In this document: one piece after another, positions 24,283-59,347 of the stretch
How the letters are laid out: every line of letters starts with the position of its first letter
Position numbering within the stretch: the stretch's first letter is position 1
Assembly (NCBI GenBank): GCA_949358305.1
Contig: OX442324.1
Location: 3,354,001-3,418,000 of the forward strand
Length of the DNA stretch: 64,000 nt
Source of the DNA: Strigamia acuminata
Taxonomy: Eukaryota; Arthropoda; Chilopoda; Geophilomorpha; Linotaeniidae
Direction: 5' to 3'
Notes under the pieces: model-generated
What the model saw: only the letters and a program-made list of their open reading frames with translations
Databases searched by the model: none
What the model was told of the DNA's origin: nothing
Made by a program: the position numbers and the translations under genes

Positions 24283-24317
<35 letters not shown>

Positions 24318-25341: not shown

Positions 25342-26000
25342 AAACGAACCGTTTTCGAACGAACTTCCGCTATAACTACTAATTTTTCGTTATAGCGAAG
25401 TCGCGAGTTTGTCGGTCATCGTTTTATTGTAATTACCGTAAATCAGTTACATTGTTGATTATTTTGAATGAACCCTCTCGCACACACACACCCCCATTAG
25501 GTGCTTCGTTTCTCCACTCGCACCCACGGGGTAAAAAGTCTGTTAATTAGAGACGCAGTCGAGCCCCAGAGCTCAATGAGGCGTTGGTTGAGGGTCGTGA
25601 ACTTTTTCTGATGCTCATTCAGTTCAATTCTGATCTAATCATGCTCGTCGTTCCCATCTTGATTCTCTCGCTGTTTCCCACTCATCGAGAGAGAACAAAA
25701 CAAGCTGGGACGAGATGCGCAACTGCAACTTGAATGACTTCCCCCTCGCTGACACCCCGTGGTGACACTCGGCGACCATTTTTTTTTTTTTTCTACTCAA
25801 AAAAACCCTTCCCATCTTTTCATTCGCTTCGATCCGATAATTAATTCGAAAAAAGGGCCATCGCAACTCAACTCCGCGAAAAAAAAAAATTTTTAAATAA
25901 AAAAAAAAATAAAAATAAAAATAATTTTTTAAACAAAAAAAAAAAAAAAAACCCCAAAAAATGAAAAAAAAAAAGAAATCGAAAAAGAAGAAGCGATTTC

Positions 26001-26005
26001 TTACC
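26001..26005 (-). other. foxo: Splice donor of the FOXO forkhead exon
   Basis: The minus strand reads CAG|GTAAGA across this point, a near-perfect donor. Beyond it the frame enters poly-A/T-encoded residues rich in F, which fixes the exon end here rather than at the downstream stop of the open frame. Confidence 0.9.
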
Positions 26006-26829
26006 TGTAAATTGGTGATGTTGTATGAGGTAGCAGAGTTAAGTTTGTCATGCAGCAACCCCCGTTGCGGGCTCCTCTGTAAGGGACTCAACTTGGATCC
26101 GTCGGCAGAAGCGGTGTAGGTCGATCCGTAGTCTCCGTACTGACTTCCGGTAGTGTAGGCATTTGTTTGGTGCATGCTGAAGCCGTTGCTGGCCAACTGC
26201 TGCTGCGTGGACATCATGTGCGGCGACAACTGACTGTTGGCGTTCGACTTGAGGTTGGCGCATTCGCTTAAATAGCCGCTTCCTTCGGTAGCATTGGTCG
26301 ACGCTTGCGCAGGTACCACGGGTCCAGAAGCGCGTCCGGCTCCTCCCAACTTCATGGTCTCGGCCAAAGTCTCGACTAGTTGATCGGCACCGTATAAGTG
26401 CGCCATCGATTCTTGACTCCATCCCATGGGCGACATGGAGGCGCCTTGGTCACCCTCGATGGCCGGAATCGGTGAAAGGCGACCGCAAGAACTGGCGTTC
26501 GAACTGGCGCGGGGCCTGAAGTCGGGGCTGAGCTGGAAGCCTGGATGAATTCCTCCAGCCGGAGACTCGGGAAACATGTCTAAAGATTCGGAAATGGACG
26601 AACTCGGACTGGGAGTCGCGTCGAGACCGTTGCGCAACGCTTCCACTTTTTTCTTCACGCGGCCGCGACGCTTTTCGTACTTCTGCGTCTCCATGCTTGT
26701 GGCCCGTCGTCTGGCGGCCTTGCCCGGCTTCGCGTCCGGGTTGATCATCCACCACGAGCTTTTACCGGTTCCCTCGTTTTGCACGCGCATGAAGCGGTTG
26801 TGGAGTGACAAATTGTGCCGAATTGAATT
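26005..26829 (-). CDS. foxo: FOXO, internal exon: second half of forkhead domain and AKT region
   Basis: The exon encodes 275 residues and begins after a TTTGTAG acceptor (AG at 26831-26830) with [10 protein letters not shown], helix 3 of the forkhead domain, the DNA-reading helix. It continues through the [16 protein letters not shown] wing. Next comes the AKT site R-R-R-A-T-S (Ser about residue 45 of the exon), overlapping the basic nuclear localisation segment KRRGRVKKK. Further on, [20 protein letters not shown] holds the third canonical AKT-type site. A Ser/Gln/Asn-rich region follows. The domain is split between Lys and Asn at the position known for FOXO genes generally. The first half of the domain and the first AKT site must come from an upstream exon that I could not find in the window. 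Both exon ends are phase 0. Confidence 0.95.
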
Positions 26830-44521: not shown

Positions 44522-44676
44522 TGTAATGAGCTCAAATTACTGTGAAGAATATTAACAATAAAACTAAACTCATTGATGCCGTGCCAGGACTTATACAAAT
44601 ACTTCTCAAAATAACTTAATATTAACTCAAATGATAGGAGAAATAATGACTCAATTATTTCTCAATTAACAGACGA

Positions 44677-44682
44677 TTTATT
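44677..44682 (-). terminator. Candidate polyadenylation signal in the LTR
   Basis: AATAAA occurs on the element strand, in the downstream half of the LTR where the R/U5 boundary is expected. The matching position in the other LTR is 58498-58503. In sense orientation within FOXO it could also end host transcripts prematurely. Confidence 0.45.
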
Positions 44683-44899
44683 CAAACTTAGAATAAACAC
44701 TAAATCGAATACAAGATATTATTTTGTGATAAACGGATAAATTAAATGACTGAAGAAATAATTTACTAAAAGAAATATAATTAAAAGCAAAGGAAAATGA
44801 TAAAGAATCCAGTCGATTCGACGACTCCACTTCTCGGGAACGCCGAACGCTTGGATTCGCTTCACTCGACGCTCGGCTCGGCCTCGGCGTTTCTTCAAT

Positions 44900-45495
44900 A
44901 CGGACTCAATTCCGTTCCAACTACTTCCTCGTGACTCGTTCGGGCTCAATCCCGCTCTCTTCGTCCTCTCCAGGTCGCAACGTCGTCGTCGCGGCGTCGT
45001 TGCGGCTGATTCCGCCTAACAATCTCTCACACTCGCGCTCACTTCGCTTCGTTGCGAGTGAGAAATCTCAGTCCAACAATGGCTGTTGGCCGAGAATAGA
45101 AATCCCTCCAAACAATACTTGTTTGGCAAGATGAAACTCCCACTGTCACTAACTGAAGTAACAGCAAGAAATATCTCACAAATCGCTCTGGCAATCTGCA
45201 AGAATGAGTCCAAATACTCTGACAATCTTTCACTAAATCGGCTTGTAGAATGGTGTTTTCTCAGGAAGATTTTGGTGACTGGTTGCTCTCAAAGTAGGTT
45301 TCAAACTGAGGAGTTTTTCTGCTCCTCACAGGAAGTGTTTCCTGCTCCGGGAGGTTGCGGGCTGGTTTCCTTGGCGACCACCCACAATTCCTCCCACCCT
45401 GCCTGCCTCCCTTTATCTAGACAGGAAATCATAAAAAATATAAAATAAAATAAAACAATCTCCAATTTAATATTTTATTTCGGGCTCATTCCCGA
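44900..45495 (-). repeat. Palindromic hexaloop motifs in the LTR (four)
   Basis: On the plus strand: ACGGA-CTCAAT-TCCGT at 44900-44915, CGGG-CTCAAT-CCCG at 44941-44954, GCGG-CTGATT-CCGC at 45002-45015 and TCGGG-CTCATT-CCCGA at 45480-45495. Arms differ but remain complementary; the loop is CTNAWT. Identical copies lie in the other LTR at 58721-58736, 58762-58775, 58823-58836 and 59301-59316. Confidence 0.85.
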
Positions 45496-45503
45496 CACTT
45501 CAT

Positions 45504-45524
45504 TAGTGACCACTAGGGTCACTA
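45504..45524 (-). repeat. Terminal hairpin of the LTR (8-bp arms)
   Basis: TAGTGACC / GGTCACTA arms with a 5-base loop end two bases from the LTR terminus that adjoins the polypurine tract. The other LTR carries the same at 59325-59345. The solo LTR at 12121 has a comparable hairpin at its start. Confidence 0.85.
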
Positions 45525-45526
45525 CA

Positions 45527-45540
45527 CCTCCCCTCTTTTT
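45527..45540 (-). other. Polypurine tract (plus-strand primer site)
   Basis: The element strand reads AAAAAGAGGGGAGG directly before the 3' LTR start TGTAGTGA. Position and composition are those of the RNase H-resistant primer for second-strand synthesis. It starts 30 bases past the stop codon of the third ORF. Confidence 0.93.
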
Positions 45541-45570
45541 AGGAAGGTTCTCCGATTCTTCCTTCACTTC

Positions 45571-48500
45571 TCACTTCTCGATTCGGAAAACTGACTCCGG
45601 AGTTGGAGCTTCGCTTTCGGAAACCGAAAATTTTGGCAGATGCTGGGTTGGTCCCGAGGTGGCGCCATTGTTGACATGGAGCCAGACTTCTTTGATGAAC
45701 TTGGTCCTCGGGAATACTCGGTCATAATCGATGTCATATTTTTCGCGGGATCCGGTGGGTGGTCTCCGCACCGCAACTAGTCGTTGATGCTGAATTATGC
45801 GTTTAGGCTCTCTGACAGCATTCTCGAGCCACTTCAATGCCTCATGGCATAACGTCGCATTATAGATAAGTAGAGTTCGCGCGTATTCGGGGAATCTCAG
45901 ACCTGGATACAACTGTTTTATTTTCCTGTAGTCTTGGTTTGGATTCTTTTTCGTCCCTTTAGTGGCTGCCGAACTTCTGCCAGACGCTGTTTTTTGCGAG
46001 CTTCCACTAGCTCTATTTAAGGGCTCATTCCCTTCGACATCAAACATCTCAGTATCGGTGGTCAATTTCAACTCAACATCGGATTCTGGAGCTATTGCTT
46101 TTTTGGTTGGCTGGTGGCTCGGCGTGGCAGTCATAAAGACTGTGGGCACCGCCCCTCCCGCTGCTGGTGGGTCAGCCACTTGCTGCGCACACGTCCCAAA
46201 ATTCCGTTGCAGTTGCAAACTCTGTCTTCTCAGAATCCATTCGCCCCGCAGTCTCAGCATGCACTGCCCCGATGTTTCTCCCGTTTTAAAAACTTCTCGT
46301 TCCAATTGGGCCCGGATGACAGGTGGGTCTCCCAATACTGTTTTCCAGCTGTCGAGCAACTCAGGTGGGATGCCCATTGCTGACGTCCATAGGAAACTTG
46401 TGGCGATCAGCGATGCTTCGACCGCTTGGAAAACTCCTGGAAACAAAAGTCTTATTAATGCCACTGACATTTGCACTTCGAACCAAGCTAGCCATTCTTT
46501 GGTTCTCAATTCGGTGGGTTGGGCGACGAAGGCTTGAGCGCATCTCCGTCGTTCATTTAGTGATTCTGCTAATTGGGCTTGCTGGTACTCGTCCATTGTC
46601 GGGGTCAGAAGTCCTTGGTTACATAATGGAAATTTCAGATACATTGTCCACAGCTGTCGATAGTATCTATCGAAATCTTCGGCTAATTTGACTGATGGGT
46701 CTATCGTGTACATCACGGTGGCTACTGATGGAATTGGCAGTGATAAGTCCGTTTGGGGAATTGGTTCCGTAATTGGCTGCAAGTGAGGGTGAGGCACCCC
46801 CAAGGCGGCACTTGGCGTAGCTTTTGGTTGTACCTTCCTTGGATCTCGCATCCTCGGGCGCAGTATTCGCGATGGTCCTTTTTTTCGCGCTGGTTCCCTT
46901 GCCCTTTTCTCCCATGCCTGGGCTAAGGCCTCGTCAAGAGTCGGCAACTCTCGGCAGCTGGAAATCTCCGGTGATGACACTCGCGGCGTTGGCGTTGGTG
47001 GGCACGTGGTTGGAGTCCAGGTAATAGGAGTGTGCGCACTCCGTGGTGGTGTCTTTGGCGCCTGGTCCGGTCTTGGAGGGGTGGCCAGCGATGGTTTCTG
47101 TACTTCCTGCTGTCTTGGCGGGGTAGTAGGTGGTGTTCGTGGCCCTCTTTTGTTGGTTTCACCTCCCTGTTGTTTTTCAATGTCGTGTATGACTGTCGCT
47201 GTTGGCTCCCGTTCCTCCAAAATGCGAACAGTCGTTTCAGCCAATTGCTGCTCTTCCTCCGACTCAGGCGATGGCGAACGTTGACACTCGTCCATTACCA
47301 CGTATTGATCTAGCTCCATCTCATGTGCCGTCAAATACTCGTCCGACGAACTTCTGCGAATTTGCACCTGTAGTGTCTCATCTTTACTTGCCGAAATTGT
47401 CACTTTTCTTGCTGGGCGCATTTCTGAATAGCGGTGTGACGACCGTGGGCGCTTCTTTGTCCGCTCAATTCGATTTCCTTCGGCTGACGGACGCTTCTCT
47501 GTTGCTCGGTGGTGTCTAGGTACGTATTCTTGCTCTGTCGTTTCGTGTCGCCTCGAATTCCTTTTCGGACTTATTTCCGAGCTTCGTTGATGCCTCTTTA
47601 CTTCCCTCTCTGAATCTTTGTCTGTTCGACTTAATCTTTTCTCCATTTGCGTTTGACGAGAGAAATATTGCCGTCTTGGACTTTTACTCCTTCGTCGGGG
47701 ACTTTCTTTTCTATCTCGACTTTGACATCTTCTCGGACTTATTTCCGCACTTCTGTACTCTTTTCGCCTAGATCTGAATTCCCTGGTATAATATTTTGGG
47801 CTGATTCTTCGAGGAGGAGTTGTCCTTTTGTGTCTCTCACTCCTGGAGTAACGAAGGGCTCCTCGTGATCTGGCTTCTCTTCCTCGCCGTTTGGTTTCCT
47901 CTTCTTCCGTTCTGACACATTTCAGAAACTCCACTTCCTCGTGCAATTCCTTCACCGTTTCTTCTGCCGCCTGCTCTAATGCTGCCTCCCACTCGTCCTG
48001 CTCCTGCCGCTGTTGTTTGGCGTACACGAGCGGTCCAAAATCCTCGGCTTGCGGCTCACCTTCTAAATTGAGCGGTGTGATGTTTTGGCCAATGAGTCCC
48101 GTCATATGGAGTTGGTGCATCTTGTACTGACTCTTTATGAAGTATGGCGGCTCTTTATCTAACTCCGGGGAAGGCAATAAGGCCTGAGCTTCGAGGTAAG
48201 CTGTCTTCTCCTCCATATATTTAGCCGCTACTTCTGGTGCTCCGGCTTTCAGCTTTGCCATCACCTCTTCCACGAATTTAAATTTGTTTGTCGCAGGATT
48301 CTGGTATATTTTGAGATCGGCTGCTTCCTCCTCTTCTATTGGATATTCGTCCCCTATCATCTGGTTCCAAATTGGGCCATGTGTGTCCTCTGTAATTGGG
48401 ATCTGTCTCAAAACTTCGTGGAAACATGTTTTGAATCCTTTAAATAGTCGTTTCGTCGTTCCCCAAAATCTTTGGATGGCTGTTGTGAAGGCTTTGCGTG

Positions 48501-48618
48501 CTTGAAATGCTGTAAAACCTCTCTTGACGAATTCTCTCTTGTATCTATATGGAATTCTCCCTCGATGGATATTCCTTGGCAATCTAGCCGCTCTCGAAAT
48601 TCTTCCCCACGACGCCAT
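45571..48618 (-). CDS. Third retrotransposon ORF: SR-like, arginine-rich protein of unknown function
   Basis: A 1015-residue ORF lies in the env position, but I see no signal peptide, membrane span or furin-like site, so it is not an envelope. The start ATG at 48618 has a strong context (GCCATGG). The N-terminus (about 1-70) is basic and helical. Residues 85-235 are helical and acidic. Residues 240-405 are rich in Arg/Ser with RS, SP and SR pairs, like the RS domains of splicing factors. Residues 490-550 hold TPPR repeats typical of proline-directed kinase sites. Residues 630-810 and 895-985 look globular, with Trp-rich helices that I do not recognise. It lies 735 bases after the pol stop, so it needs a spliced or separate mRNA. 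Possible roles are RNA export, splicing control or nucleocapsid function, all inference. The uninterrupted length and the compact 3' end argue that it is maintained. Confidence 0.85.
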   Translation of the reverse strand: MASWGRISRAARLPRNIHRGRIPYRYKREFVKRGFTAFQARKAFTTAIQRFWGTTKRLFKGFKTCFHEVLRQIPITEDTHGPIWNQMIGDEYPIEEEEAADLKIYQNPATNKFKFVEEVMAKLKAGAPEVAAKYMEEKTAYLEAQALLPSPELDKEPPYFIKSQYKMHQLHMTGLIGQNITPLNLEGEPQAEDFGPLVYAKQQRQEQDEWEAALEQAAEETVKELHEEVEFLKCVRTEEEETKRRGREARSRGALRYSRSERHKRTTPPRRISPKYYTREFRSRRKEYRSAEISPRRCQSRDRKESPRRRSKSPRRQYFSRQTQMEKRLSRTDKDSEREVKRHQRSSEISPKRNSRRHETTEQEYVPRHHRATEKRPSAEGNRIERTKKRPRSSHRYSEMRPARKVTISASKDETLQVQIRRSSSDEYLTAHEMELDQYVVMDECQRSPSPESEEEQQLAETTVRILEEREPTATVIHDIEKQQGGETNKRGPRTPPTTPPRQQEVQKPSLATPPRPDQAPKTPPRSAHTPITWTPTTCPPTPTPRVSSPEISSCRELPTLDEALAQAWEKRAREPARKKGPSRILRPRMRDPRKVQPKATPSAALGVPHPHLQPITEPIPQTDLSLPIPSVATVMYTIDPSVKLAEDFDRYYRQLWTMYLKFPLCNQGLLTPTMDEYQQAQLAESLNERRRCAQAFVAQPTELRTKEWLAWFEVQMSVALIRLLFPGVFQAVEASLIATSFLWTSAMGIPPELLDSWKTVLGDPPVIRAQLEREVFKTGETSGQCMLRLRGEWILRRQSLQLQRNFGTCAQQVADPPAAGGAVPTVFMTATPSHQPTKKAIAPESDVELKLTTDTEMFDVEGNEPLNRASGSSQKTASGRSSAATKGTKKNPNQDYRKIKQLYPGLRFPEYARTLLIYNATLCHEALKWLENAVREPKRIIQHQRLVAVRRPPTGSREKYDIDYDRVFPRTKFIKEVWLHVNNGATSGPTQHLPKFSVSESEAPTPESVFRIEK
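46019..47747 (-). repeat. Palindromic hexaloop motifs in the third ORF (three)
   Basis: AAGGG-CTCATT-CCCTT at 46019-46034, TCGGA-CTTATT-TCCGA at 47565-47580 and CGGA-CTTATT-TCCG at 47734-47747 (plus-strand reading). The last two encode S/A-E-I-S-P in the RS domain. Confidence 0.85.
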
Positions 48619-49352
48619 GGCTTCTTGGGTCTGTATAAAACATTATTAAATTCAATTTTCTCTCAAATTCATTGTATTTTATCTTTCTCTGATGTGTGTG
48701 TTATTTTTGCGTATTTATCTCGATTTTGAGTTTTATTATTCTAAATTTTCTCACAAGATGGCGCTCCGTGCTAATTTTTTGTGATAGGAGTCCTTTTTAT
48801 ACCACTCTTTTGCAATTTTTGGCGAATAATTAGCACTTTCGTCATATAAAACCAGTTATTTACGTGATAGCTAATTTTATTCTAACTTATTTCGAGACAT
48901 TCGACTCCTTTTCCTTTTAAATCGTGATTTCGCCGAACTTGTCACGTTGTAACGACATATTTCGTTCCGTCATTTCCACGAATACTTTAAGCACTTTCAA
49001 ATAACACACCCGATGAGAGAAAATACTTCCTTATTCATTTATATTTTCGACACATTTCGATTTTTACTACCTCACTGTGGTCCTGTCTTTTCGGTGGTGG
49101 TGTTTTCCGTGGTTCGAACATCTTGAGATGAACTTCCGCTTAATCGGACCCTTCTTTCACTTGGCTGCACACTTTTCTTCGTTTTTTGGTCGTTTTCCCT
49201 CTGACTGTTGTTGTTAAAATCCGGGATAACTTTCTTAAACTTGCTATTGTTTTGATGTCAAGTTAACAAGTGAGATTCGCCTCGACCAATCACGTTCGAG
49301 CTGCGACGTCGTCCACTTCCGGACTCCCGAGTGACGTCGCTACCTTCTATTT
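48619..49352 (-). promoter_or_regulatory. Non-coding gap before the third ORF with promoter- and splice-like motifs
   Basis: The gap of 734 bases separates the pol stop from the third-ORF start and carries no ORF. On the element strand, near 49340-49270, it has a GC-richer block. That block contains a CRE-like GACGTCAC, an ETS-like CCGGAAGTG and an inverted CCAAT (GATTGG). TATAAAAA is at 48801-48794, and a YY1-like motif (AAGATGGCGC on the plus strand) is at 48755-48764, near the start site a TATA box there would set. A TTTTATACAG acceptor-like sequence ends at 48631, 12 bases before the ATG. Either an internal promoter or a spliced subgenomic mRNA could express the third ORF. The sequence does not decide which. 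Confidence 0.45.
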
Positions 49353-52300
49353 TTAGAGGTAGTCTGGAGGCTTAATCCTCCCCCTATCTCGAAGTGAATA
49401 TTTCTTCAAGATAGCTTTTTTCTTGATTTTTCCTGGTTGTTTTTCACGCAAATCTTGATAAAATTTCTTTATTTTCTTCTTTTCTACCACTCCTCCCCTC
49501 TTTTTAGAAAAAGACGCAACTTGTTCATCTGTTTCTAAACTTAAGTCCCGTGGAAAAAGTGGCAATCTTTCTTGCGTGTTGTCATTGGAATTTACATCCA
49601 ACTCCTCGTCGCTCTCCAAATTGTTATCCTTTTCACCGCTTCTTTGTTTACTTGAAACTTGAGAACTCACGCCCGCTGTGTCTGAACCTGACAAATCCTG
49701 TAATTCCAGTTGTTGTTGTGATGTTTGTGGATCCTGCAAACTTTGTGTGTTATCCAAAGTGTGAGATCCTTGTGCATCTTCTAAATTTTGCGAATCTTGC
49801 AAACTTTGTGTTTGTTTCAAAGTTTGTGATTCCGCTGAATTACTATTATTCATCCGACTCATTTCAGTGGTCTGCGAATTTTCTGTCTCCGTATTTTCTT
49901 GTGTTTCGGATGTTGTTGGCTCATCAAATAATGTATTAATTATTTTTCCATTCGGATTGCTCTGAGTTTGATCCTTTTCCCAAATTTCTTGATTAAATTC
50001 CGGGAAATAAGGTGATAATTCGGACATATGGATGGAGCGAAAGATCTTATTATCTTTTAGCCGTCTTAGTTTCACTGCTCCTCCTTGGTGGACTTGAATG
50101 ATCACATATGGTCCACTCCGCTTGTCGGATAATTTCGCCGAAATCCCTTGTGACGCTTTTGATAATGGGTGATCATCTTTCCATACCAAATCATTTGTTT
50201 TAAAGTCATCAAATTTTTTATCCATCTTGTGATTTTGCACTCGTTCGCGCAAGTCGGTTATGTGCGCCATCATATGGTGATATGTATCTCTAATTATTTT
50301 CTCCAGTCGCTGGATGTAAATATGTGGCTTGTTTGGGTCTATTTTTGCAATTCCATCCAAAATTCGTGGATCCCAAGGAATCCTAAATTCTCTACAGCAA
50401 TTCAAGTATGCTGGAGAATAATCGCGGCCTGTTGTTGCCGTTGTGCGTATGCTAAACGCAATTTCTCTCAAATATGTGTCCCACCTTTTGTGAATATCTG
50501 TGAAAATTGACAAAATGTACTTTAAATCGCGGTTGGTCCTTTCTACCGTGTTGGCCTGCGGGTGATATGGTGACGTAAATCGCGGAGTAATTTTGAATTT
50601 CCTGCAGAATTCGTGGTATATTCGGGCCTTAAATTGCGGGCCGTTGTCCGATACGATTCGGAGTGGGAATCCCCATCCCATACACGTGTTGTACAGACAA
50701 TCCGCTATATCTTGTGCGACGGGGTCGGATAATGGGTAAAGTTCCGGCCATCTGGTGGCTATATCCAAAATTACTAAAATGTAATTGTTTCCTTCATCAG
50801 TTCTAATCAATGGTCCTACCAAATCTATACTTAAACACTCAAAAGGTGCATATGGGCCAATTTGCGCTGCTTCTACTCGTGTTTTAGTCCGAGGTTTACA
50901 CGCCTGACACCGCGGACAGTGTTTAATAAATCTGGTGGTGTCACGTTTGATTCCATCCCACGTATAAATCTGTCGCATTCGATAAAGCGTCCTCGCAATT
51001 CCGCAATGGCTTGCGAGCGGGTGGCCGTGCATTTGCCATAACACTCGGAATCTTAGTGATCTCGGTATCACGACCTTCAGGGCTCGAGAATCCTCGCTTA
51101 AATCATCTGACAATGTTGGATGGTATTTTAATAATAAATCCTCTTCTAACATGTGTTTAGTCGCCAACATGCGATAATTCTTCTTTTGTAATGGTGTTGT
51201 TACGTAAGCTGGAAATTGTTCTGTCTCGAGGTAGTATCGCATTGATTGGCAGTGGCGATCCTTTTTCTGATGCTCTATAATTTCGTCGCGGGTCGGAGGC
51301 ATGCAATCTGCCTGCTCCGTGACTTTTGCAATGAATGCTGTCACCATTTCGCATTCGGAAGTCGGCAAATATTGAATTTCTTTAATTTTCGGACTTATTT
51401 CCGACTCTTCTGCCGGCGCATCATACATGTGACTCCAATATGCCGTGACTTGCTCGTCTACTAATCGTTCTTCTTCCGACTGAGGTTTTGGCAACTGATT
51501 CCAGTTACCCACGACCCATTTTCGTGGTTCTGTCGGGCAGTATTTTAAGTCACCGTCGGCTTCTCCCGTCTCTTCGTTGTCGCAGATGAGTTGAATTGGT
51601 GCTCTAGATAAGGCGTCTGCTAATGTGTTGGCAGTCCCTTTCAAATATTGGATTGTAAAATTATAAGACATCAATTCCATCTGCCAACGGGCGAGACGTC
51701 CAGCTGGCTCTTCCAGTCTCATCAACCACTTTAGCGCTTCATGATCCGTCTGCACGACGAAACTAGTGAACTCCAAATATGGTCTAAATTTTCGGAGCGC
51801 CCAAATTACCGCCAAACATTCGAGATCCGTGGCGCCGTAATTAAGTTCTGCCTGTTGCAGACATCTACTGAGGTACACACACGGTGACTCAATCATCTGC
51901 CCATCAATTTCTTTGATCTGCATCAAGGCAGCACCCAATCCTTTCTTACTCGCGTCTGTCCTTACGATGAATGGTTGGTGTAAATTTGGCAAGTGCATAG
52001 TTTTGGCGTCGGTCAGTAATTGCTTAATGTTATCAAAGGCAACTTGGTGTACTTCCTCCCAAATAAATTCTATCCCCTTCTTCAGGAGTGGGCGTAGAGG
52101 TTCGGCCACCGTGGCCAAATTCTTAAGAAGTCTATGGAAAAAGTTGACCATGCCAAAAAATCGTTGTAACTCTGTCAAATTTTTTGGCGCTGGAAATTCC
52201 TTTATGGCCGCTACTTTGGCTGGGTCTACGCTTAAGCCGTTGATTCCAAGTTTGTACCCTAGAAATTTTAGTTCCTTCCTGCAGAATTTTGACTTTGTTG

Positions 52301-54551
52301 GATTTACATGCAATCCAGCTTTCTGTAATTTTCCTAAAACTGAATCTAGATGTTTCATGTGTTCTGCGTACGTTTTTGATACGATCACAATATCGTCAAG
52401 GTAGGCCCAAGCATATTTTCGGAATGCTTCGCCTAATACCTTTTCTATTAGTCGCTGAAAAGTGGTTGGCGCGTTGACCAGCCCGAAAGGCATGACGTTA
52501 AACATCAGTCTGCCTTGCGGACTCCAGAATGCTGTTTTCGGACGGTCTTCTGGTCTCAGATCTATTTGCCAGTATCCTTTTGTTAGATCAATGGTTGAAA
52601 CCCATTGAAATTCGCCGAGCTCTCTTAAAATTTCTGTTATTGTCGGCATCTGGGGCGGGTCATACAAAGTGTGTTCATTCAGCGCTCTGTAATCAATACA
52701 GAGACGTGGCTCTGAACCTGGTCTCATTACCAACACAATCCTTGTCGCATAATCGCCTTCTGCAGTTGTTACATAGCCCTTATCAATCATTTCTTGGCAT
52801 AATGTCCGCAATATTTCCCTTTTTTGTGGATTCCAAGATTTAAAAGGAACCCTTATTGGTTTGTCAGTGTCTAAATTGATGGTGTGCTGTACCACATGAG
52901 TCTTGCCTGGATTTTTACTCAAAATTTTCTCATATTTCTTCAATACATGCTCTAATTGTAAAGCTTCTGTTAGTTGCAGTTTGGCTTCTTCTATCATGTC
53001 ATGCAAGCCATTGCCAACTTTCAATCTCGCTTCAAATGCGCAAAAACTACTCTCTTTTCGGAATGTTTTTCGCAATGATTCTGGCTCTTCCAGTTTCTTC
53101 TGCTCATATTTATCCATGATGAATTGTGGCATATATGGTTGTGGCACGTCGATTGTTGAAATAAAGTTCCACTTGCCGTTGAGCGGATTGGGCTGTATTT
53201 TCATTCGTTTCATGGCATCATTGCCAACCAACATGAATTTCATGTCGTGTGGTAACACAAGGAAATACTGTTGCATCATTCCATGGGTCCAACGAATCAT
53301 CATCCTTATTGTTCCCATCGGTTGCACTTTTTTATCTGCTGTATTTACAGCCATATTGGCCTTGACGGGCCACACTTCTTTTTCCAATCCCATCGCCTGA
53401 ATTAATGGCCATGAAACACAACTACGGTTGGCTCCTGAGTCTAGCATGGCAGCGATGGATCCTTGTTTTGTTTGGAGGTCTATTGTGGTCATCCCTTCCA
53501 AAACATCTTCTTCTGGCAATAATATATTAAAAATTCTGATGCGCGGTCCTTCCGGTTCCAATATTGTCAATTCCTTCAATAATGGATCCCATTCCACAGG
53601 CTCAGTTGGTGTATCTGTCATCCATGCTGCTAGTGATGGTGTCTCCTCATAGGTCTCTTTTACCTTTGCCCAAAAAATTGTTGCTTCATTTTCTTGTGTG
53701 ATTTCCACATTTTTTAGGGCTTCCGTCACTTCTGCTGTGAAATAAGTTCTATTTGTTTCATAAATTTCTTTTATTTTTGGACAATTTTCCAACTCTACTG
53801 GTGGAAATTTTATTCCTACTATTTGTCCACATTCCATTTCACAAATCATTTCTCCTCTTTTTGGCATTGTGCCAATTGCTTCTGGTGGCGTGAGTGTTAC
53901 TGGAATAGTTGTGTTTTTTAGTGGTCCATTGTCTTTCAGAATGTTCATTTTTGATGAAGTTTCGGCTTGTTCCAGTTTAGAATCCGTCACTGGTTTCTGT
54001 GTCGGATATCTCATCCCTACGACTTCGCCGTCTTCAAAGTTAAAGACTATTGTCCCTTTTCCACCTTCTAAAGTTCCTATCACTTTATGTGATTTTTCAG
54101 CTAATTCTGATTGCACATATTCTCCAGTTTTGGGGTCTTTGATGAATCGTGCTCCCTTAGGCGCTTGTGCTGTTGGTGGAGTTTCTTGGGTATTTTCAGT
54201 CAAATTCTCGGGTTCCACTGATGTTTTCAATATTAATGAAGTCTCTGATATTTCTCCATCTAATGATCGGTCATTCTGTAAATTTCCACAATTTTCCGAA
54301 TTTTCCGGCAGTGTTGTCTGCATGTTTTGCGAATTTTCAGAGTTTTTCAGCAAGTCCTTTGATTCTGATAATGTTTCTGATATTAACAGCGTTTCCGTCA
54401 TGGCTTCATTTATTGGCTGGACCTCCGATAATCCATCCGAATCTTGTACCATTTCGATTGTTAATTCTGATGTTGGTTGGGCTTGTAGCAGATTTTCCGA
54501 AATTTTTGTTGGCGCGAGCTCCACTGCTTTTATTGAGCCCGCGCGTTCAAG
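49353..54551 (-). CDS. pol: Pol polyprotein: protease, reverse transcriptase, RNase H, integrase
   Basis: Residue numbers count from a GTG at 54524. No ATG begins this frame, so it is entered by a -1 shift at 54551-54557. Residues 1-120 are Ser/Asn/Glu-rich. Two similar β-type motifs follow at about 155-174 and 222-241. The retropepsin motif is D-S-G-A at 362-365. RT spans about 555-760 with Asp646 and YLDD at 708-711. RNase H has Asp857, Glu902, Asp927 and Asp970. The integrase zinc finger uses His1168, His1173, Cys1203 and Cys1206; the catalytic residues are Asp1234, Asp1293 and Glu1328. A GPY/F-type module starts at 1471. A Ser/Gln/Asn-rich tail runs to 1723. All catalytic residues are present, so the enzyme looks functional. 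It reverse-transcribes the element RNA in cytoplasmic particles and integrates the DNA in the nucleus. Confidence 0.95.
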   Translation of the reverse strand, partial: LERAGSIKAVELAPTKISENLLQAQPTSELTIEMVQDSDGLSEVQPINEAMTETLLISETLSESKDLLKNSENSQNMQTTLPENSENCGNLQNDRSLDGEISETSLILKTSVEPENLTENTQETPPTAQAPKGARFIKDPKTGEYVQSELAEKSHKVIGTLEGGKGTIVFNFEDGEVVGMRYPTQKPVTDSKLEQAETSSKMNILKDNGPLKNTTIPVTLTPPEAIGTMPKRGEMICEMECGQIVGIKFPPVELENCPKIKEIYETNRTYFTAEVTEALKNVEITQENEATIFWAKVKETYEETPSLAAWMTDTPTEPVEWDPLLKELTILEPEGPRIRIFNILLPEEDVLEGMTTIDLQTKQGSIAAMLDSGANRSCVSWPLIQAMGLEKEVWPVKANMAVNTADKKVQPMGTIRMMIRWTHGMMQQYFLVLPHDMKFMLVGNDAMKRMKIQPNPLNGKWNFISTIDVPQPYMPQFIMDKYEQKKLEEPESLRKTFRKESSFCAFEARLKVGNGLHDMIEEAKLQLTEALQLEHVLKKYEKILSKNPGKTHVVQHTINLDTDKPIRVPFKSWNPQKREILRTLCQEMIDKGYVTTAEGDYATRIVLVMRPGSEPRLCIDYRALNEHTLYDPPQMPTITEILRELGEFQWVSTIDLTKGYWQIDLRPEDRPKTAFWSPQGRLMFNVMPFGLVNAPTTFQRLIEKVLGEAFRKYAWAYLDDIVIVSKTYAEHMKHLDSVLGKLQKAGLHVNPTKSKFCRKELKFLGYKLGINGLSVDPAKVAAIKEFPAPKNLTELQRFFGMVNFFHRLLKNLATVAEPLRPLLKKGIEFIWEEVHQVAFDNIKQLLTDAKTMHLPNLHQPFIVRTDASKKGLGAALMQIKEIDGQMIESPCVYLSRCLQQAELNYGATDLECLAVIWALRKFRPYLEFTSFVVQTDHEALKWLMRLEEPAGRLARWQMELMSYNFTIQYLKGTANTLADALSRAPIQLICDNEETGEADGDLKYCPTEPRKWVVGNWNQLPKPQSEEERLVDEQVTAYWSHMYDAPAEESEISPKIKEIQYLPTSECEMVTAFIAKVTEQADCMPPTRDEIIEHQKKDRHCQSMRYYLETEQFPAYVTTPLQKKNYRMLATKHMLEEDLLLKYHPTLSDDLSEDSRALKVVIPRSLRFRVLWQMHGHPLASHCGIARTLYRMRQIYTWDGIKRDTTRFIKHCPRCQACKPRTKTRVEAAQIGPYAPFECLSIDLVGPLIRTDEGNNYILVILDIATRWPELYPLSDPVAQDIADCLYNTCMGWGFPLRIVSDNGPQFKARIYHEFCRKFKITPRFTSPYHPQANTVERTNRDLKYILSIFTDIHKRWDTYLREIAFSIRTTATTGRDYSPAYLNCCREFRIPWDPRILDGIAKIDPNKPHIYIQRLEKIIRDTYHHMMAHITDLRERVQNHKMDKKFDDFKTNDLVWKDDHPLSKASQGISAKLSDKRSGPYVIIQVHQGGAVKLRRLKDNKIFRSIHMSELSPYFPEFNQEIWEKDQTQSNPNGKIINTLFDEPTTSETQENTETENSQTTEMSRMNNSNSAESQTLKQTQSLQDSQNLEDAQGSHTLDNTQSLQDPQTSQQQLELQDLSGSDTAGVSSQVSSKQRSGEKDNNLESDEELDVNSNDNTQERLPLFPRDLSLETDEQVASFSKKRGGVVEKKKIKKFYQDLREKQPGKIKKKAILKKYSLRDRGRIKPPDYL
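49366..51404 (-). repeat. Palindromic hexaloop motifs in pol (two)
   Basis: GGAGG-CTTAAT-CCTCC at 49366-49381, overlapping the last codons of pol, and TCGGA-CTTATT-TCCGA at 51389-51404 between RNase H and integrase, where it encodes S-E-I-S-P (plus-strand reading). Confidence 0.8.
49492..49507 (-). other. Internal copy of the polypurine tract in the 3' end of pol
   Basis: The element strand reads CTAAAAAGAGGGGAGG, identical over 16 bases to the terminal polypurine tract at 45542-45527. In the pol frame it encodes part of S-K-K-R-G-G. It could act as a second initiation site for plus-strand synthesis, or mark where the element once ended before the third ORF was gained. Confidence 0.8.
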
Positions 54552-54557
54552 TTTTTT
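54512..54557 (-). promoter_or_regulatory. -1 programmed frameshift signal between gag and pol
   Basis: In gag frame the element strand reads A AAA AAC (54557-54551), a canonical slippery heptamer. It is followed by a 6-base spacer (TTGAAC) and a stem GCGCGGGCTC (54544-54535) pairing with GAGCTCGCGC (54521-54512). That is ten pairs including one G-U, with a 13-base loop. The gag stop codon TAA lies in the loop. The pol frame is -1 to gag, lacks an ATG and is open across the heptamer. All four elements of a retroviral-type frameshift site are therefore present. Confidence 0.93.
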
Positions 54558-57500
54558 GTGATACTTTCGGATAAGGAGTTTACAAGTTGCTCCATTTCTT
54601 CTGCAGACATCAATCTCTTAGGATGTGGGCATTGTCGTGCCCAATGTCCAATTTGCCCGCAATTGTGGCATGGTGCATTGTCTGGAGTCAACTTTGCTTG
54701 GTTGGCCTTATTGCCATCATCAGGGTTACTTGGAGTTGAAGTTTGTTCATTTTTTTCTCCAATTTGCGATTTATTATTTTCTTTTTTCAAATTAAAATCA
54801 ACTGAAAATGGTTTTGGAAGGAAGGACGTATTTCCTTTCATCTGCGGTTGCAAGCTCGTCTGCTGTGGTTGCCTCGCCTGCATTGGAGGCTTATATTTTG
54901 TTATTGCTGGGTTATTTTTTGTGAATAACACACTTGCCGCATCCATTAATTTGTCGACTTCTTCTTCTGTATATTCGGCCAGCATTATCTGGGTATCTCC
55001 TATTGACTCGCTGGATTCACCTGGGTATTGTGTCCATTTGACATTTGGTCGCATTGGTATTCGTGGCTGTGGATAAGGAGGATGTCCACTCTCTTGTTTT
55101 TTGGTGGAGGTTTCCTCTCGTAACAGCGAGAATTGAGAACGCGGGCGCATCATTTTTGCACCAGCACGAGTGTAGTCTGACTGGTGTCGCTGTCTTTCAT
55201 CTCGTGCTCTCTGCTCTTCTATCGGAATGTCTGAAGCGTACCGGTCGTCAATGTACATCTGGTGGTTTCGGATGAATTGTGATAATTTTTCGAAGGAACT
55301 GGCCATCGGTGCATCCACCATTCGCAATACTTGCTCGGAGAAAGGTGTCAGGCCATTCCTGAATTTTCTGTCTTTGTCAAAATCGCTGATATGATATGGG
55401 AGTTGGGTGAACAAATCTTCTGTACGTCTTAAGTACGTGCGAATGTCTTCTCCCAACGTCTGTTTGTGATTATCCCAATATTTTATCATCATGGCGTTGG
55501 ACTCTCCATATTCCTTCATAAAAGCTTTCACAAATTCGTCCCAGTGTGAGAAGTTACTTTTCCGCAACCAATTTGTTGCACTTCCAACCAACATTTTCGG
55601 AATTAATTTTTTCAAAGTTACGTCCGGGTCCATCTCGTGATTTATGACTAGGTGCATAACTTCATCTAGGAATTGGGTACCAGCCTGCCAACCTCCATCA
55701 AACATATCGGGAGTAATTCGGTCCCATTTGATTTGATGAGATGGGGTGTAATGGTGAGTCCAATTGCTCGAACAATATTTCCGAATTATTTTCCGCAGCA
55801 TCTCGTCCATTTCCTGTGATTTCGAGGGGATTTGAGACAATCGTTCATCGATTTGTCTTGAGATAATTTCTTCCAATTCCTCTGTGCTTTTCGGTAATGT
55901 GCGTGGGTTAGTTGGCGGTGGATCTCTATCGTCTTGTCGAAAATTTCCTCCACCTCTCCTTTCCTCTCGTGATCTGGAAAAATTAGGCTCGTCTCGACGA
56001 AATTGGTCAGAGTGAGAATATTTTCGATCATATTCCTCTCCTCTTGGCGGAGGGCTGGAATGTGATCGTCTGTCGTCTCGATACGAATCATCACGTCGTC
56101 CCTCCGAATAATCACGTTGTCGATACGAATTATCTCGTCGATCCTGTGAGTTGTCACGACGTCCTTGCGATTCTCTTTGGGTATAACCTTCATACCAATA
56201 GGAGCCCCTTTGCCGTCGTGATTCGTCTTGATAATCAGATTGTTGACGTGAATTATTTCTTTCCATCGACTCATTTCGATTTAAATTGTGCTGTCCTGTT
56301 GCTTCGTAATTACGTTGTTGACGCGTTTCGTTGTTGAAGCAAGCAGCACCTTGTTGGTCCGTTTCTTGTTGATAACGCGACTCATTTCGCGGCTCTCTTT
56401 CATATTGTGATCGTGTCTCGTTGGAAAATCGTACTTCAGTGTGCGTGTGAATTCCTTGTTGATTACACGACTCATTTCGTGGATCTACATTTTCCGGTTG
56501 CTGGGAATATTTGCCTTGTAGATAATCATTGTAATCCCTAACTTTCGTATAACTGGCTTGTCCAGTTGCTTCATCATGTCCAGTCGCAGCATTTTGGTTG
56601 CTGCTTTTATCTTGCTCTGGAACTTCTTGATCGTGTTGAAACTTTTGTTTTTCATTTTCGCGACTTATTTCGCGTTGCCTATCTCTTTCATTAGCTGCTG
56701 ACAAGTGTTCAACTGCTTCTTCCAACGTATATTTACGATGGTAACAAGGATCGTTCTCATTTATTGGTTTTTCTGTGTAAACGTCAAATGATTTTCCTTC
56801 ATTTTTTGTAGAAGATACTCTGACATTTTCAGTTTCCATCTTTTTGGGCTTATCCCAAATCTGCGGGTCTGCTGGATCTAATCCTGTCACTTTACCTTGT
56901 TTTTTGTCTGCTGCAGCTGATTGATTTGTTAGATGCTGACGATTTCTTCGATCAATTATGTCCAATACGTTTGGATTTTTGGCTGGTGACATAGAAGCAC
57001 GTTTGGAGTCTCTTTTTTCATCCATTTCACCTTTCCTTTTTAAAGAGTTCCTAGACGATTCTGGTGATAAATTCACTACTTCAGGTCGGCGAGGTGGAAT
57101 GTTGCTCGGCACTTGATACTGACATTGTGCGAGATATTTTAGTTCTTCATTTTCTCGGCGGACTCTTTCCGCGGCTTCTTGTGCTTCAAGAGCAGCTTGA
57201 CGAAGGTAATGGATTTCCCTGCTCTCCGCCGACTCCATGGCCTTTTGCTTTGCCAGCAATTCTTGCTTTTCGGTTTCCAAACGGACTTTTTCCGCTTCTA
57301 TCTTCCGATTTTCTTCAAGAATTGCCTCTCGCTCCGCCGCCGCTTGCGCTTTTCGCTGTGCACGTAATTCTTTTTGCTCCGTTTCCTGACGGAGTTTTTC
57401 CGCTGCCAATTTGTTCCTCATCGTGCGCATTTCTGCTTCGAGTCGGTCTTTGGTAGCACGAATTTCTGCGTCCAATTGATCTTTCTTTGCGCGAATATCT

Positions 57501-58219
57501 TCATCTGTTGTTTTCTTGGCCAATTCTGCCTCGAATTTCGCTTGTTTGGCGTGGCGTTCCTCTAACTTGAGCCGTTTCAACATCTGGAATTCTTCGGAAT
57601 GTGCCAGTTGCAGTCGCCTTGCTCGATCGGCCATTGCTGCCGTTATTTGTGCCACGTCTTCATCAGAAAGCTGCACACCTTCCTCATACTGCTGGTGACG
57701 CTCCTGGAGACTGTCTTCCATCTCTTTCATGACATCTGCGATGCGTTGGCGAGCTCTCGCTAATTTATGGCGGGTTGGGGAGTTTTCTCCTGAACTTTCC
57801 GCCTCATCGCGGGCACGTCCTGACGCTTGCTGCTTGTAGGCTCGCACTAGTCGACCACGCTTCCTTGCTACAGCGATGACTTGCTCCAACGTCATGTGAG
57901 AAAGGTCTATTTTGCTTGTTGGAGTCGAATCCACCGTGGCTGGCGTGTCGCCATGTTGCGACGAAGCTCCTGAGATACTTGATTTTCCAAGCAAATCTTG
58001 GGACTCCTCTCTCGTTTGTTTTAGCCAAAATTCTCCCTGCCGTTCAGGCGATACTTCCAGACGAAATTCCTTGCTCGTCATAGCCTGGGTGTCATCTGCA
58101 TGGTCCGACTCGGATGATGATGAAGGATGCACATTGGCTGCTCCTGTGGTCCTTCCGCCTCGTGTGCGAGGTCCGCGGCCGTTTCCCCGTCCTCTCCTCG
58201 AATCTTGTGGCTGCGACAT
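54530..58219 (-). CDS. gag: Gag polyprotein with long coiled-coil N-terminal extension
   Basis: The ORF encodes 1229 residues from ATG 58219, about 120 bases after the 5' LTR; typical Gypsy Gags are roughly 300-600. Residues 8-26 are RG-rich. About residues 150-385 form a long, highly charged, probable coiled coil (E/K/R/A/Q heptads). A 300-residue Arg/Gln/Asn/Glu/Ser-rich disordered region follows. About 815-1010 is a retrotransposon capsid domain with the WDNHKQTLGEDIRTYLRR type region. One CCHC zinc knuckle (C-x2-C-x4-H-x4-C) is at 1184-1197. Gag would assemble the particle and bind genomic RNA. The four hexaloop palindromes in the disordered region encode R-N-E-S or R-E-I-S. It ends at TAA 54532-54530 inside the frameshift stem-loop. 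Confidence 0.94.
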   Translation of the reverse strand: MSQPQDSRRGRGNGRGPRTRGGRTTGAANVHPSSSSESDHADDTQAMTSKEFRLEVSPERQGEFWLKQTREESQDLLGKSSISGASSQHGDTPATVDSTPTSKIDLSHMTLEQVIAVARKRGRLVRAYKQQASGRARDEAESSGENSPTRHKLARARQRIADVMKEMEDSLQERHQQYEEGVQLSDEDVAQITAAMADRARRLQLAHSEEFQMLKRLKLEERHAKQAKFEAELAKKTTDEDIRAKKDQLDAEIRATKDRLEAEMRTMRNKLAAEKLRQETEQKELRAQRKAQAAAEREAILEENRKIEAEKVRLETEKQELLAKQKAMESAESREIHYLRQAALEAQEAAERVRRENEELKYLAQCQYQVPSNIPPRRPEVVNLSPESSRNSLKRKGEMDEKRDSKRASMSPAKNPNVLDIIDRRNRQHLTNQSAAADKKQGKVTGLDPADPQIWDKPKKMETENVRVSSTKNEGKSFDVYTEKPINENDPCYHRKYTLEEAVEHLSAANERDRQREISRENEKQKFQHDQEVPEQDKSSNQNAATGHDEATGQASYTKVRDYNDYLQGKYSQQPENVDPRNESCNQQGIHTHTEVRFSNETRSQYEREPRNESRYQQETDQQGAACFNNETRQQRNYEATGQHNLNRNESMERNNSRQQSDYQDESRRQRGSYWYEGYTQRESQGRRDNSQDRRDNSYRQRDYSEGRRDDSYRDDRRSHSSPPPRGEEYDRKYSHSDQFRRDEPNFSRSREERRGGGNFRQDDRDPPPTNPRTLPKSTEELEEIISRQIDERLSQIPSKSQEMDEMLRKIIRKYCSSNWTHHYTPSHQIKWDRITPDMFDGGWQAGTQFLDEVMHLVINHEMDPDVTLKKLIPKMLVGSATNWLRKSNFSHWDEFVKAFMKEYGESNAMMIKYWDNHKQTLGEDIRTYLRRTEDLFTQLPYHISDFDKDRKFRNGLTPFSEQVLRMVDAPMASSFEKLSQFIRNHQMYIDDRYASDIPIEEQRARDERQRHQSDYTRAGAKMMRPRSQFSLLREETSTKKQESGHPPYPQPRIPMRPNVKWTQYPGESSESIGDTQIMLAEYTEEEVDKLMDAASVLFTKNNPAITKYKPPMQARQPQQTSLQPQMKGNTSFLPKPFSVDFNLKKENNKSQIGEKNEQTSTPSNPDDGNKANQAKLTPDNAPCHNCGQIGHWARQCPHPKRLMSAEEMEQLVNSLSESITKNLNARAQ
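56265..56674 (-). repeat. Palindromic hexaloop motifs in gag (four within 410 bases)
   Basis: ATCGA-CTCATT-TCGAT at 56265-56280, CGCGA-CTCATT-TCGCG at 56376-56391, CACGA-CTCATT-TCGTG at 56466-56481 and CGCGA-CTTATT-TCGCG at 56659-56674 (plus-strand reading). All have perfect 5-bp arms, and the outer arm bases co-vary. Confidence 0.9.
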
Positions 58220-58319
58220 CTCGTTTTAGTCACAGAAAAGAAGAAAGAAACAGAATACTCTATCACAAAATAACTTTTATCACACAAAATTGGTCCCTCA
58301 ACTGAAGATAAGTTGTTAA
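58220..58319 (-). other. Short untranslated leader between primer-binding site and gag
   Basis: About 100 bases, AT-rich on the element strand, leading to ACGAGATG at the gag start. No clear splice donor stands out, so a spliced mRNA for the third ORF would need a donor elsewhere (LTR R/U5 or gag). Confidence 0.7.
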
Positions 58320-58340
58320 GGTTCAAATAACGGGCCCCCA
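58320..58340 (-). other. Primer-binding site resembling tRNA-Pro
   Basis: Two bases after the 5' LTR the element strand reads TGGGGGCCCGT and then TATTTGAACC. From memory, the complement of a metazoan tRNA-Pro 3' end starts TGGGGGCTCGT, one difference. The complement of its T-arm gives ATTTGAACC, so the site seems to pair with two parts of the tRNA with four intervening bases deleted. Assignment to Pro rests on recalled tRNA sequence, not on a search. Confidence 0.7.
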
Positions 58341-58342
58341 AG

Positions 58343-59347
58343 TGTAATGAGCTCAAATTACTGTGAAGAATATTAACAATAAAACTAAACTCATTGATGC
58401 CGTGCCAGGACTTATACAAATACTTCTCAAAATAACTTAATATTAACTCAAATGATAGGAGAAATAATGACTCAATTATTTCTCAATTAACAGACGATTT
58501 ATTCAAACTTAGAATAAACACTAAATCGAATACAAGATATTATTTTGTGATAAACGGATAAATTAAATGACTGAAGAAATAATTTACTAAAAGAAATATA
58601 ATTAAAAGCAAAGGAAAATGATAAAGAATCCAGTCGATTCGACGACTCCACTTCTCGGGAACGCCGAACGCTTGGATTCGCTTCACTCGACGCTCGGCTC
58701 GGCCTCGGCGTTTCTTCAATACGGACTCAATTCCGTTCCAACTACTTCCTCGTGACTCGTTCGGGCTCAATCCCGCTCTCTTCGTCCTCTCCAGGTCGCA
58801 ACGTCGTCGTCGCGGCGTCGTTGCGGCTGATTCCGCCTAACAATCTCTCACACTCGCGCTCACTTCGCTTCGTTGCGAGTGAGAAATCTCAGTCCAACAA
58901 TGGCTGTTGGCCGAGAATAGAAATCCCTCCAAACAATACTTGTTTGGCAAGATGAAACTCCCACTGTCACTAACTGAAGTAACAGCAAGAAATATCTCAC
59001 AAATCGCTCTGGCAATCTGCAAGAATGAGTCCAAATACTCTGACAATCTTTCACTAAATCGGCTTGTAGAATGGTGTTTTCTCAGGAAGATTTTGGTGAC
59101 TGGTTGCTCTCAAAGTAGGTTTCAAACTGAGGAGTTTTTCTGCTCCTCACAGGAAGTGTTTCCTGCTCCGGGAGGTTGCGGGCTGGTTTCCTTGGCGACC
59201 ACCCACAATTCCTCCCACCCTGCCTGCCTCCCTTTATCTAGACAGGAAATCATAAAAAATATAAAATAAAATAAAACAATCTCCAATTTAATATTTTATT
59301 TCGGGCTCATTCCCGACACTTCATTAGTGACCACTAGGGTCACTACA
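58343..59347 (-). repeat. 5' LTR (1005 bp)
   Basis: It is the same length as the LTR at 44522-45526 and appears identical base for base. It lies beside the primer-binding site, so it is the 5' LTR of the minus-strand element and should drive its transcription. The palindromic hexaloop motifs and terminal hairpin listed for the other copy recur here at +13,821. Confidence 0.96.

Follow-up and report, generated by a model that had tools for sequence, protein, structure and literature searches.

In several single-stranded RNA (ssRNA) viruses and in hepatitis B virus (HBV), many short stem-loops that share a loop motif occur along the genome, and cooperative contacts with the capsid protein have been proposed for them. 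The existence of many dispersed packaging signals in RNA genomes is debated, since the proposed signals are degenerate. The parts of the reports available to us give the loops as A.X.X.A in satellite tobacco necrosis virus (STNV; PMC3662417), RGAG in HBV (PMC7612645) and purine trinucleotides in enterovirus-E (PMC7793301), the STNV and enterovirus-E motifs having come from systematic evolution of ligands by exponential enrichment (SELEX) combined with bioinformatics. We describe here a comparable family of stem-loops, known from sequence alone, in a Ty3/gypsy-type long terminal repeat (LTR) retrotransposon of Strigamia acuminata (Chilopoda). The element lies in a stretch of 64,000 nucleotides (contig OX442324.1 of assembly GCA_949358305.1, positions 3,354,001 to 3,418,000 of the forward strand), called the window below. 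Its hairpins resemble the viral signals in their number and shared loop motif, and differ in their perfect stems, their strand bias, the covariation of their arms in the LTRs and the loop A(N)2-3[A/U]G. As in the viral cases, there are many shared-loop stem-loops beyond chance, and they are conserved among relatives, here inside one clade. The viral signals are the closest working analogy. We put the probability that the hairpins form a functional code at the level of nucleic acid at about 85%.

Packaging has also been studied in LTR retrotransposons. The RNA of Ty1 and Ty3 is chosen by Gag, as is proposed here, and Ty3 likewise belongs to the Metaviridae. The packaging sequences of Ty3 are called not precisely defined in the available part of one source (PMC11381356). 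Mini-elements of both Ty1 and Ty3 transpose with most of the interior deleted, and the available parts of the two sources do not mention a repeated, dispersed family of hairpins (PMC4974528, PMC11381356). A search of the PMC literature by title and start of abstract found no report of similar dispersed hairpins in LTR retrotransposons. The original prediction, made from the window's sequence before this analysis, had claimed that no counterpart was described; for LTR retrotransposons this agrees with our search, whereas dispersed stem-loops with a loop motif have been described in ssRNA viruses and HBV, as far as the portions of those reports at hand show.

Hairpins with a small stem and loop, a variable stem sequence and a protein reader are also known in host RNAs, namely the CNGG loops of Smaug, the constitutive and alternative decay elements (CDE/ADE) of Roquin and the CAGUGN hexaloop of the iron-responsive element. 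These known host systems were ruled out on their loop sequences as generally described. Stem-loops bound by retroviral nucleocapsid, such as those with GNNG or GACG loops, lie in a compact leader structure. They share with the present hairpins an exposed G or purine loop, a short stem and a CCHC Gag reader, and are unlike them in that here tens of copies run through genes and LTRs. The accessible part of one report describes a purine loop in mouse mammary tumour virus (PMC8096270).

Excess, shape and orientation of the hairpins

A hairpin was scored as strict if it had the hexaloop AWTNAG in element RNA (CTNAWT on the plus strand) between perfect arms of at least 4 bp. All 13 sites of the original prediction, 17 with both LTRs, have perfect arms of 4-5 bp around CTNAWT on the plus strand (Table 1). 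That list was incomplete. Six further strict sites had been overlooked, as had pentaloop members such as those at 56551 and 57158. Over the full window, CTNAWT with arms of at least 4 bp occurs 25 times on the plus strand, 23 of these in the element and 2 outside, and once on the minus strand. The sites are located in the LTR and in three genes, and use all three codon positions.

The hairpins are far more numerous than expected. Counting one LTR, the element has 19 strict hairpins against a mean of 0.24 in dinucleotide shuffles (maximum 2 in 100 shuffles), and 11 with arms of at least 5 bp against 0.07 (maximum 1). Codon-preserving shuffles, which had been suggested as a check, also leave the excess in place: gag, pol and the third open reading frame (ORF3) together hold 14 strict hairpins against 0.08 in synonymous-codon shuffles (maximum 1 of 60). 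Without gag, pol and ORF3 hold 9 against 0.145 (maximum 2 of 200), and the LTR alone holds 4 against 0.024 (maximum 1 of 500). Pentaloops of the type A..AG are likewise in excess and belong to the same set as the hexaloops. An unbiased search for loop motifs, spanning loop lengths 3-9 and loop positions, ranked A.T.AG first in the window family (19 versus 0.59 expected, p ~2e-22). A coding artefact was ruled out by the codon-preserving shuffles and by the use of all codon positions, with a cluster of sites in gag as a partial exception. A motif general to the genome was also rejected: in the 49.2 kb of the window outside the element, strict hairpins with arms of at least 4 bp numbered 0 on the plus strand (expected 0.77) and 2 on the minus strand. 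Rfam covariance models gave 0 matches at E<=1 over the 14,826 bases of the element.

Beyond this loop type, perfect hairpins with 5-8-nt loops and 4-5-bp arms are also in moderate excess across the element (44522-59347).

As a consensus, the loop reads A-[A/T]-[T..]-N-[A/T]-G or A-N-N-[A/T]-G. The original prediction described arms that change together around a constant loop; the arms do covary, but they are not free, and the loop has five or six bases. Of 157 distinct hairpins (broad loop, families with the code, chance hairpins included), 76 have A-U as pair 1 and 107 have G-C as pair 2. Within the code-bearing families, and uncorrected for shared ancestry, strict loops with 0 to 6 stem pairs number 595, 137, 30, 15, 53, 43 and 9, respectively. 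There is a stem threshold at four pairs; a fifth is favoured and a sixth is not. Orientation is nearly uniform. Six sequence sets totalling 61.6 kb contain 105 hairpins in the sense orientation (67 hexaloops and 38 pentaloops) and 3 hexaloops and 0 pentaloops in antisense. The mean pair probability is 0.56 for motif hairpins (n=37) versus 0.34 in the comparison set (n=138). Loops resembling U1 or 5' splice sites were ruled out by eye, as AATCAG, ATTTAG and AATTTG do not fit.

Conservation among related families and in short derivatives

At least 21 copies of the element in the genome have 100% reverse transcriptase (RT) identity, and relatives extend down to 79% (103 scored of 3949 RT candidates). 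From these 103 matches, families were picked by hand; nine were studied in two pieces or as the window, and the sequences L055-L058 in part. The RT tree reveals that all code-bearing families form one well supported clade (100/99), with the 84, 83, 81, 80 and second 80% families outside it. Within the clade, the unbiased search again ranked related loops first: A.T.AG in the 97% family (24 versus 0.93, p ~1e-25, with the second LTR and the overlap included), the pentaloop AA.AG in the 96% family (17 versus 1.13; deduplicated, 14 versus 0.98) and AA..AG in the 90% family (16 versus 1.07; deduplicated, 15 versus 0.98). Counts that are not deduplicated include second LTRs and 500-nt overlaps twice; the stem-length and strand counts above are deduplicated. 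In the 84, 83, 81 and second 80% families the same search found nothing above the noise of their own antisense runs. Strict sites number 0, 2 and 0 in the 84, 83 and 80% families, and 2 is the shuffle maximum.

The 80% family (L039, L040) has a different sense-strand set, C-closed hexaloops of the type G...GA or GA...A, with 10 in its ORF pieces versus 0.58 in codon shuffles (maximum 3 of 60). This set is poorly kept in the sister L055, in which 1 of 8 sites is perfect, one cannot be mapped and some align poorly.

The LTR hairpins covary. At site 1 the arms are TCGGG/CCCGA in the window and the 97% family, ACAGA/TCTGT in the 96% family, and TCAGA/TCTGA in the 90% family and L056. Homologous LTR loops switch between six and five bases and retain A...G. 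Over four LTR sites in six LTR families (site 2, GAGT...ACTC, excluded; site 3 missing from the 90% family, f90), two-sided differences make up 47 of 275 pair comparisons, with Watson-Crick pairs in both sequences in 32 of the 47; because the sites were chosen after their pairing had been seen, the arm changes are informative and the pairing itself is not. The remaining two-sided differences are the optional outer pair, according to the alignment table. The covariation score of site 1, in which the f90 row with its five-base loop is out of register, is 0.53; shuffled versions score 0.34, with 10 of 500 reaching the observed value, and slid versions score 0-0.23.

Compensated changes are also seen in the genes. 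CACGA/TCGTG in gag becomes TACGA/TCGTA, and TCGGA/TCCGA in pol becomes TTGGA/TCCAA; in ORF3, AAGGG/CCCTT becomes AAGGA/TCCTC, with the inner pair compensated and the outer pair lost. Full pairing is retained in 159 of 314 directed comparisons for motif hairpins in the ORFs versus 574 of 2798 for other hairpins (unaligned, 61 motif and 287 other; gapped, 12 and 68). Synonymous choice is kept more often in motif hairpins than in the rest of the coding sequence: 0.93 versus 0.77 in the 97% family, 0.73 versus 0.49 in the 96% family and 0.61 versus 0.46 in the 90% family. In the two distant families the synonymous conservation of other hairpins is like that of the rest (0.50 in the 96% family). 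A comparison of related elements had been proposed as a test of arm complementarity; complementarity is kept with covariation inside the clade, and the code is absent from the families outside it. The claim that the constraint acts on nucleic acid is well supported, given sites in the LTR and three genes, all codon positions in use, survival of codon shuffles, synonymous conservation and LTR covariation.

Short elements with an LTR-to-LTR spacing near 5.8 kb were found by LTR search. A 4.6-kb read of one such derivative (L057/L058) contains rearranged pieces of gag followed directly by pol residues 1588-1684, and lacks RT, RNase H and integrase. The remaining ~1.2 kb before the second LTR is too short for a full ORF3. 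The 2.2 kb searched is 98-100% alike in at least 27 copies, which suggests that the derivative has been mobilised in trans. It keeps the LTR hairpins plus three GCGA AATGAG TCGC hairpins. In a more diverged second set of derivatives, for which positions only were obtained (the first 100 of 132 places), several copies of the hairpin GCGAAATGAGTCGC fall within 300 bp, and in the loci at C1:9300110, C3:11630293 and C8:3795783 they are spaced by multiples of 18 nt. The gag cluster of the window lies in a region of imperfect 6-residue repeats of RNES/RRDNS type (56074-56700, minus strand), whose weak 18-nt periodicity is also present in L057 and L043. Retention of a peptide repeat does not explain the LTR hairpins of the derivative.

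The host element and its features

Membership in Ty3/gypsy (Metaviridae) is indicated by the TG...CA ends of the LTRs, a target duplication within 4-6 bp and the order of the pol domains. Pfam places the protease at pol residues 356-440, RT at 605-759, RNase H at 822-954 and integrase at 1153-1322; the protease match, at 22.0 bits, is under its cut-off of 28.2. A protein search with pol returned 74 matches at no more than 38% identity among the 7988 candidates scored. The Troyka superfamily, described in the part of the source available as having CG...CG termini and a 3-bp target duplication (PMC12440569), was rejected on the ends and the 4-bp duplication of the element. The N- and C-terminal parts of the ORF3 product are conserved, and its Arg/Ser-rich middle is variable, in nine families of the same genome. 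Protein search (the 7991 candidates sharing most words), viral contigs, a PDB profile and Pfam gave no relatives of ORF3 outside this genome; two weak Pfam matches (0.029 and 0.065), found in one member apiece of the nine, were judged to be chance.

A 21-nt palindrome, TAGTGACC CTAGT GGTCACTA, adjoins the LTR end at 45504-45524 and 59325-59345. It is invariant in six aligned LTR families and is perhaps an integrase site. The LTR also contains a perfect palindrome with 10-bp arms, GAGAAATAAT TGAGTC ATTATTTCTC (44638-44663, minus strand). Exons of a host FOXO gene lie at 21743-26811 on the minus strand, some 18 kb or more away from the insertion; among the best 120 of 1200 matches, this gene points to an arthropod host.

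Table 1. Positions of the retrotransposon, its genes and its hairpins. Coordinates are those of the window unless a contig is given; hairpins are written in the sense of the element as arm, loop, arm.
Feature	Position	Strand	Remarks
Ty3/gypsy-type LTR retrotransposon, whole	44522..59347	-	14,826 bp; sense on minus strand; TGTA...TACA ends; 4-bp target duplication ACTT
3' LTR	44522..45526	-	1005 bp; identical to 5' LTR
5' LTR	58343..59347	-	1005 bp; identical to 3' LTR
gag-like ORF	54530..58219	-	1229 aa; single CCHC zinc knuckle near C-terminus
pol ORF	49353..54524	-	1723 aa; order protease, RT, RNase H, integrase
ORF3	45571..48618	-	1015 aa; Arg/Ser-rich middle
ACGGA ATTGAG TCCGT	44900..44915; 5' LTR copy 58721..58736	-	LTR site 5 (LTR position 612)
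CGGG ATTGAG CCCG	44941..44954; 5' LTR copy 58762..58775	-	LTR site 4
GCGG AATCAG CCGC	45002..45015; 5' LTR copy 58823..58836	-	LTR site 3
TCGGG AATGAG CCCGA	45480..45495; 5' LTR copy 59301..59316	-	LTR site 1; covaries across six LTR families
AAGGG AATGAG CCCTT	46019..46034	-	ORF3; orthologue AAGGA ATTGAG TCCTC
TCGGA AATAAG TCCGA	47565..47580	-	ORF3
CGGA AATAAG TCCG	47734..47747	-	ORF3
TCCG ATTAAG CGGA	49135..49148	-	between pol and ORF3; absent from earlier list
GGAGG ATTAAG CCTCC	49366..49381	-	pol
AAAGAT AATAAG ATCTTT	50040..50057	-	pol; absent from earlier list
TCGGA AATAAG TCCGA	51389..51404	-	pol; orthologue TTGGA ACAGAG TCCAA
CTGG AAGAG CCAG	51704..51716	-	pol; pentaloop
TGGT AATGAG ACCA	52719..52732	-	pol; absent from earlier list
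AACC AATAAG GGTT	52848..52861	-	pol; absent from earlier list; lost in 96% family
TCAG AATTAG CTGA	54097..54110	-	pol; absent from earlier list
TGGC AATAAG GCCA	54703..54716	-	gag; absent from earlier list
ATCGA AATGAG TCGAT	56265..56280	-	gag cluster
CGCGA AATGAG TCGCG	56376..56391	-	gag cluster
CACGA AATGAG TCGTG	56466..56481	-	gag cluster; orthologue TACGA AATGAG TCGTA
AACTGG ACAAG CCAGTT	56551..56567	-	gag; pentaloop
CGCGA AATAAG TCGCG	56659..56674	-	gag cluster
TTTGGG ATAAG CCCAAA	56843..56859	-	gag; pentaloop
GCGGA AAGAG TCCGC	57158..57172	-	gag; pentaloop
CGGA AAAAG TCCG	57282..57294	-	gag; pentaloop
Second derivative set, recurring GCGAAATGAGTCGC hairpin	C1:9300110-9300393, C3:11630293-11630576, C8:3795783-3795994, C3:36770975-36771836

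Candidate functions and significance

We infer that the hairpins form in RNA, that a protein binds them and that a packaging step follows. The genomic RNA would carry about 25 to 35 copies of the stem-loop, one per roughly 400-550 nt, each with 4-5 Watson-Crick pairs, often G-C and then A-U beside the loop A(N)2-3[A/U]G, and recognition would be by shape plus loop rather than by a fixed sequence. The binding protein would act in trans and would most likely be the element's own Gag, with its single CCHC knuckle; by binding many copies together it would select element RNA for particle assembly. Non-autonomous derivatives, in which the hairpins are kept and RT and integrase are lost, would profit from this recognition. 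Since the non-autonomous copies keep the hairpins, and since short stem-loops are bound by Gag-type proteins in retroviruses, Gag would be the natural reader. Packaging by Gag as the function of the hairpins has, in our estimate, about an even chance of being correct.

Several observations weigh against a functional code in RNA or against its use in packaging. In local folds of ~165 nt, only 57% of the 37 motif hairpins have a mean pair probability above 0.5. Near-perfect arms have no preference for G.U over A.C mismatches (13 versus 20 for 5-bp arms, 9 versus 13 for 4-bp arms), which argues against a plain RNA reading because RNA should tolerate G.U; short stems may be unable to afford wobble. 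Two-sided changes in the ORFs do not discriminate, being Watson-Crick in 40 of 89 motif cases and 395 of 982 controls. Many ORF3 hairpins are absent at the orthologous place and lie at non-homologous positions across families, a turnover expected if number matters more than position, in an ORF that evolves fast. In the derivative as in the window, the gag cluster is in an open 18-nt/6-aa repeat frame, so selection on the protein could keep those sites. Families outside the clade have gag, pol and ORF3 in the same order and yet no clear excess; since these sisters do without it, the code is not generally needed by such elements. Finally, the packaging sequences of Ty1 are placed in the 5'-terminal 580 nt, according to the part of the source available (PMC4974528).

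The same RNA code could serve another step, with a host protein or the ORF3 product binding for export, a block to splicing, stability or translation. All nine families compared have ORF3, whose product is an orphan protein with an RS-like stretch, and hairpins across the whole RNA, both LTRs included, are what an export or stability tag would look like; the RNA-level evidence for packaging fits export or stability equally well. Against this, an ORF3 with 31-34% identity to that of the window also occurs in the families that lack the code, which presumably export their RNA, and a tag read by the host would be expected in unrelated elements, whereas the rest of the window, the only such sequence scored, has 0 strict hairpins on the plus strand and 2 on the minus strand. 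The derivative keeps its hairpins without room for a full ORF3, which fits any factor acting in trans. On balance this reading is unlikely, although it is the main rival to packaging.

Action on DNA is more doubtful still. The hairpins would form in single-stranded complementary DNA during reverse transcription, or would be inverted-repeat sites in double-stranded DNA. The Watson-Crick strictness of the arms, with G.U not preferred, is consistent with this, as are the four strict sites in each LTR of the window, a sequence that both ends of the element share. A symmetric double-stranded site, however, predicts free orientation of the loop, and the ratio observed is 105:3; the arms change while remaining paired, unlike sequence-specific half-sites; and sites within the ORFs of a 14-kb element have no obvious role in DNA. 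The oriented protein-binding palindromes considered in the original prediction are disfavoured by the same covariation and strand bias, though the G.U result leaves them some likelihood.

Absence of function is highly improbable: correction of quasi-palindromes by template switching during reverse transcription can match both arms in one event, the gag cluster does encode a 6-residue repeat and perfect hairpins with loops of 5-8 nt are generally in excess in the element, but neither template switching nor a by-product of peptide repeats such as RNES accounts for a near-constant, sense-only loop in the LTR and at all codon positions, for stems that halt at 4-6 bp instead of growing, for an excess that remains without gag, for synonymous conservation in two distant families that other hairpins lack, or for sister families of the same gene order with no clear excess.

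These features suggest that the hairpins are a repeated tag marking element RNA, perhaps for packaging. Tentatively, and with some doubt, they may be read further as an alphabet specific to the clade, in which tens of covarying stem-loops would act as an identity tag read by the element's own Gag, sister families would have no tag or a different one, and parasites would keep or multiply the tag in order to be packaged in trans. The signal of this retrotransposon is visible by eye, is statistically very strong, can be placed on a tree, is absent in sisters and is present in derivatives. Its placement on the tree, its absence in sisters and its presence in derivatives make the idea of dispersed signals directly testable. 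If the reading is true, it would reveal how a retrotransposon distinguishes its own RNA from the RNA of its relatives, and how parasites exploit that recognition.

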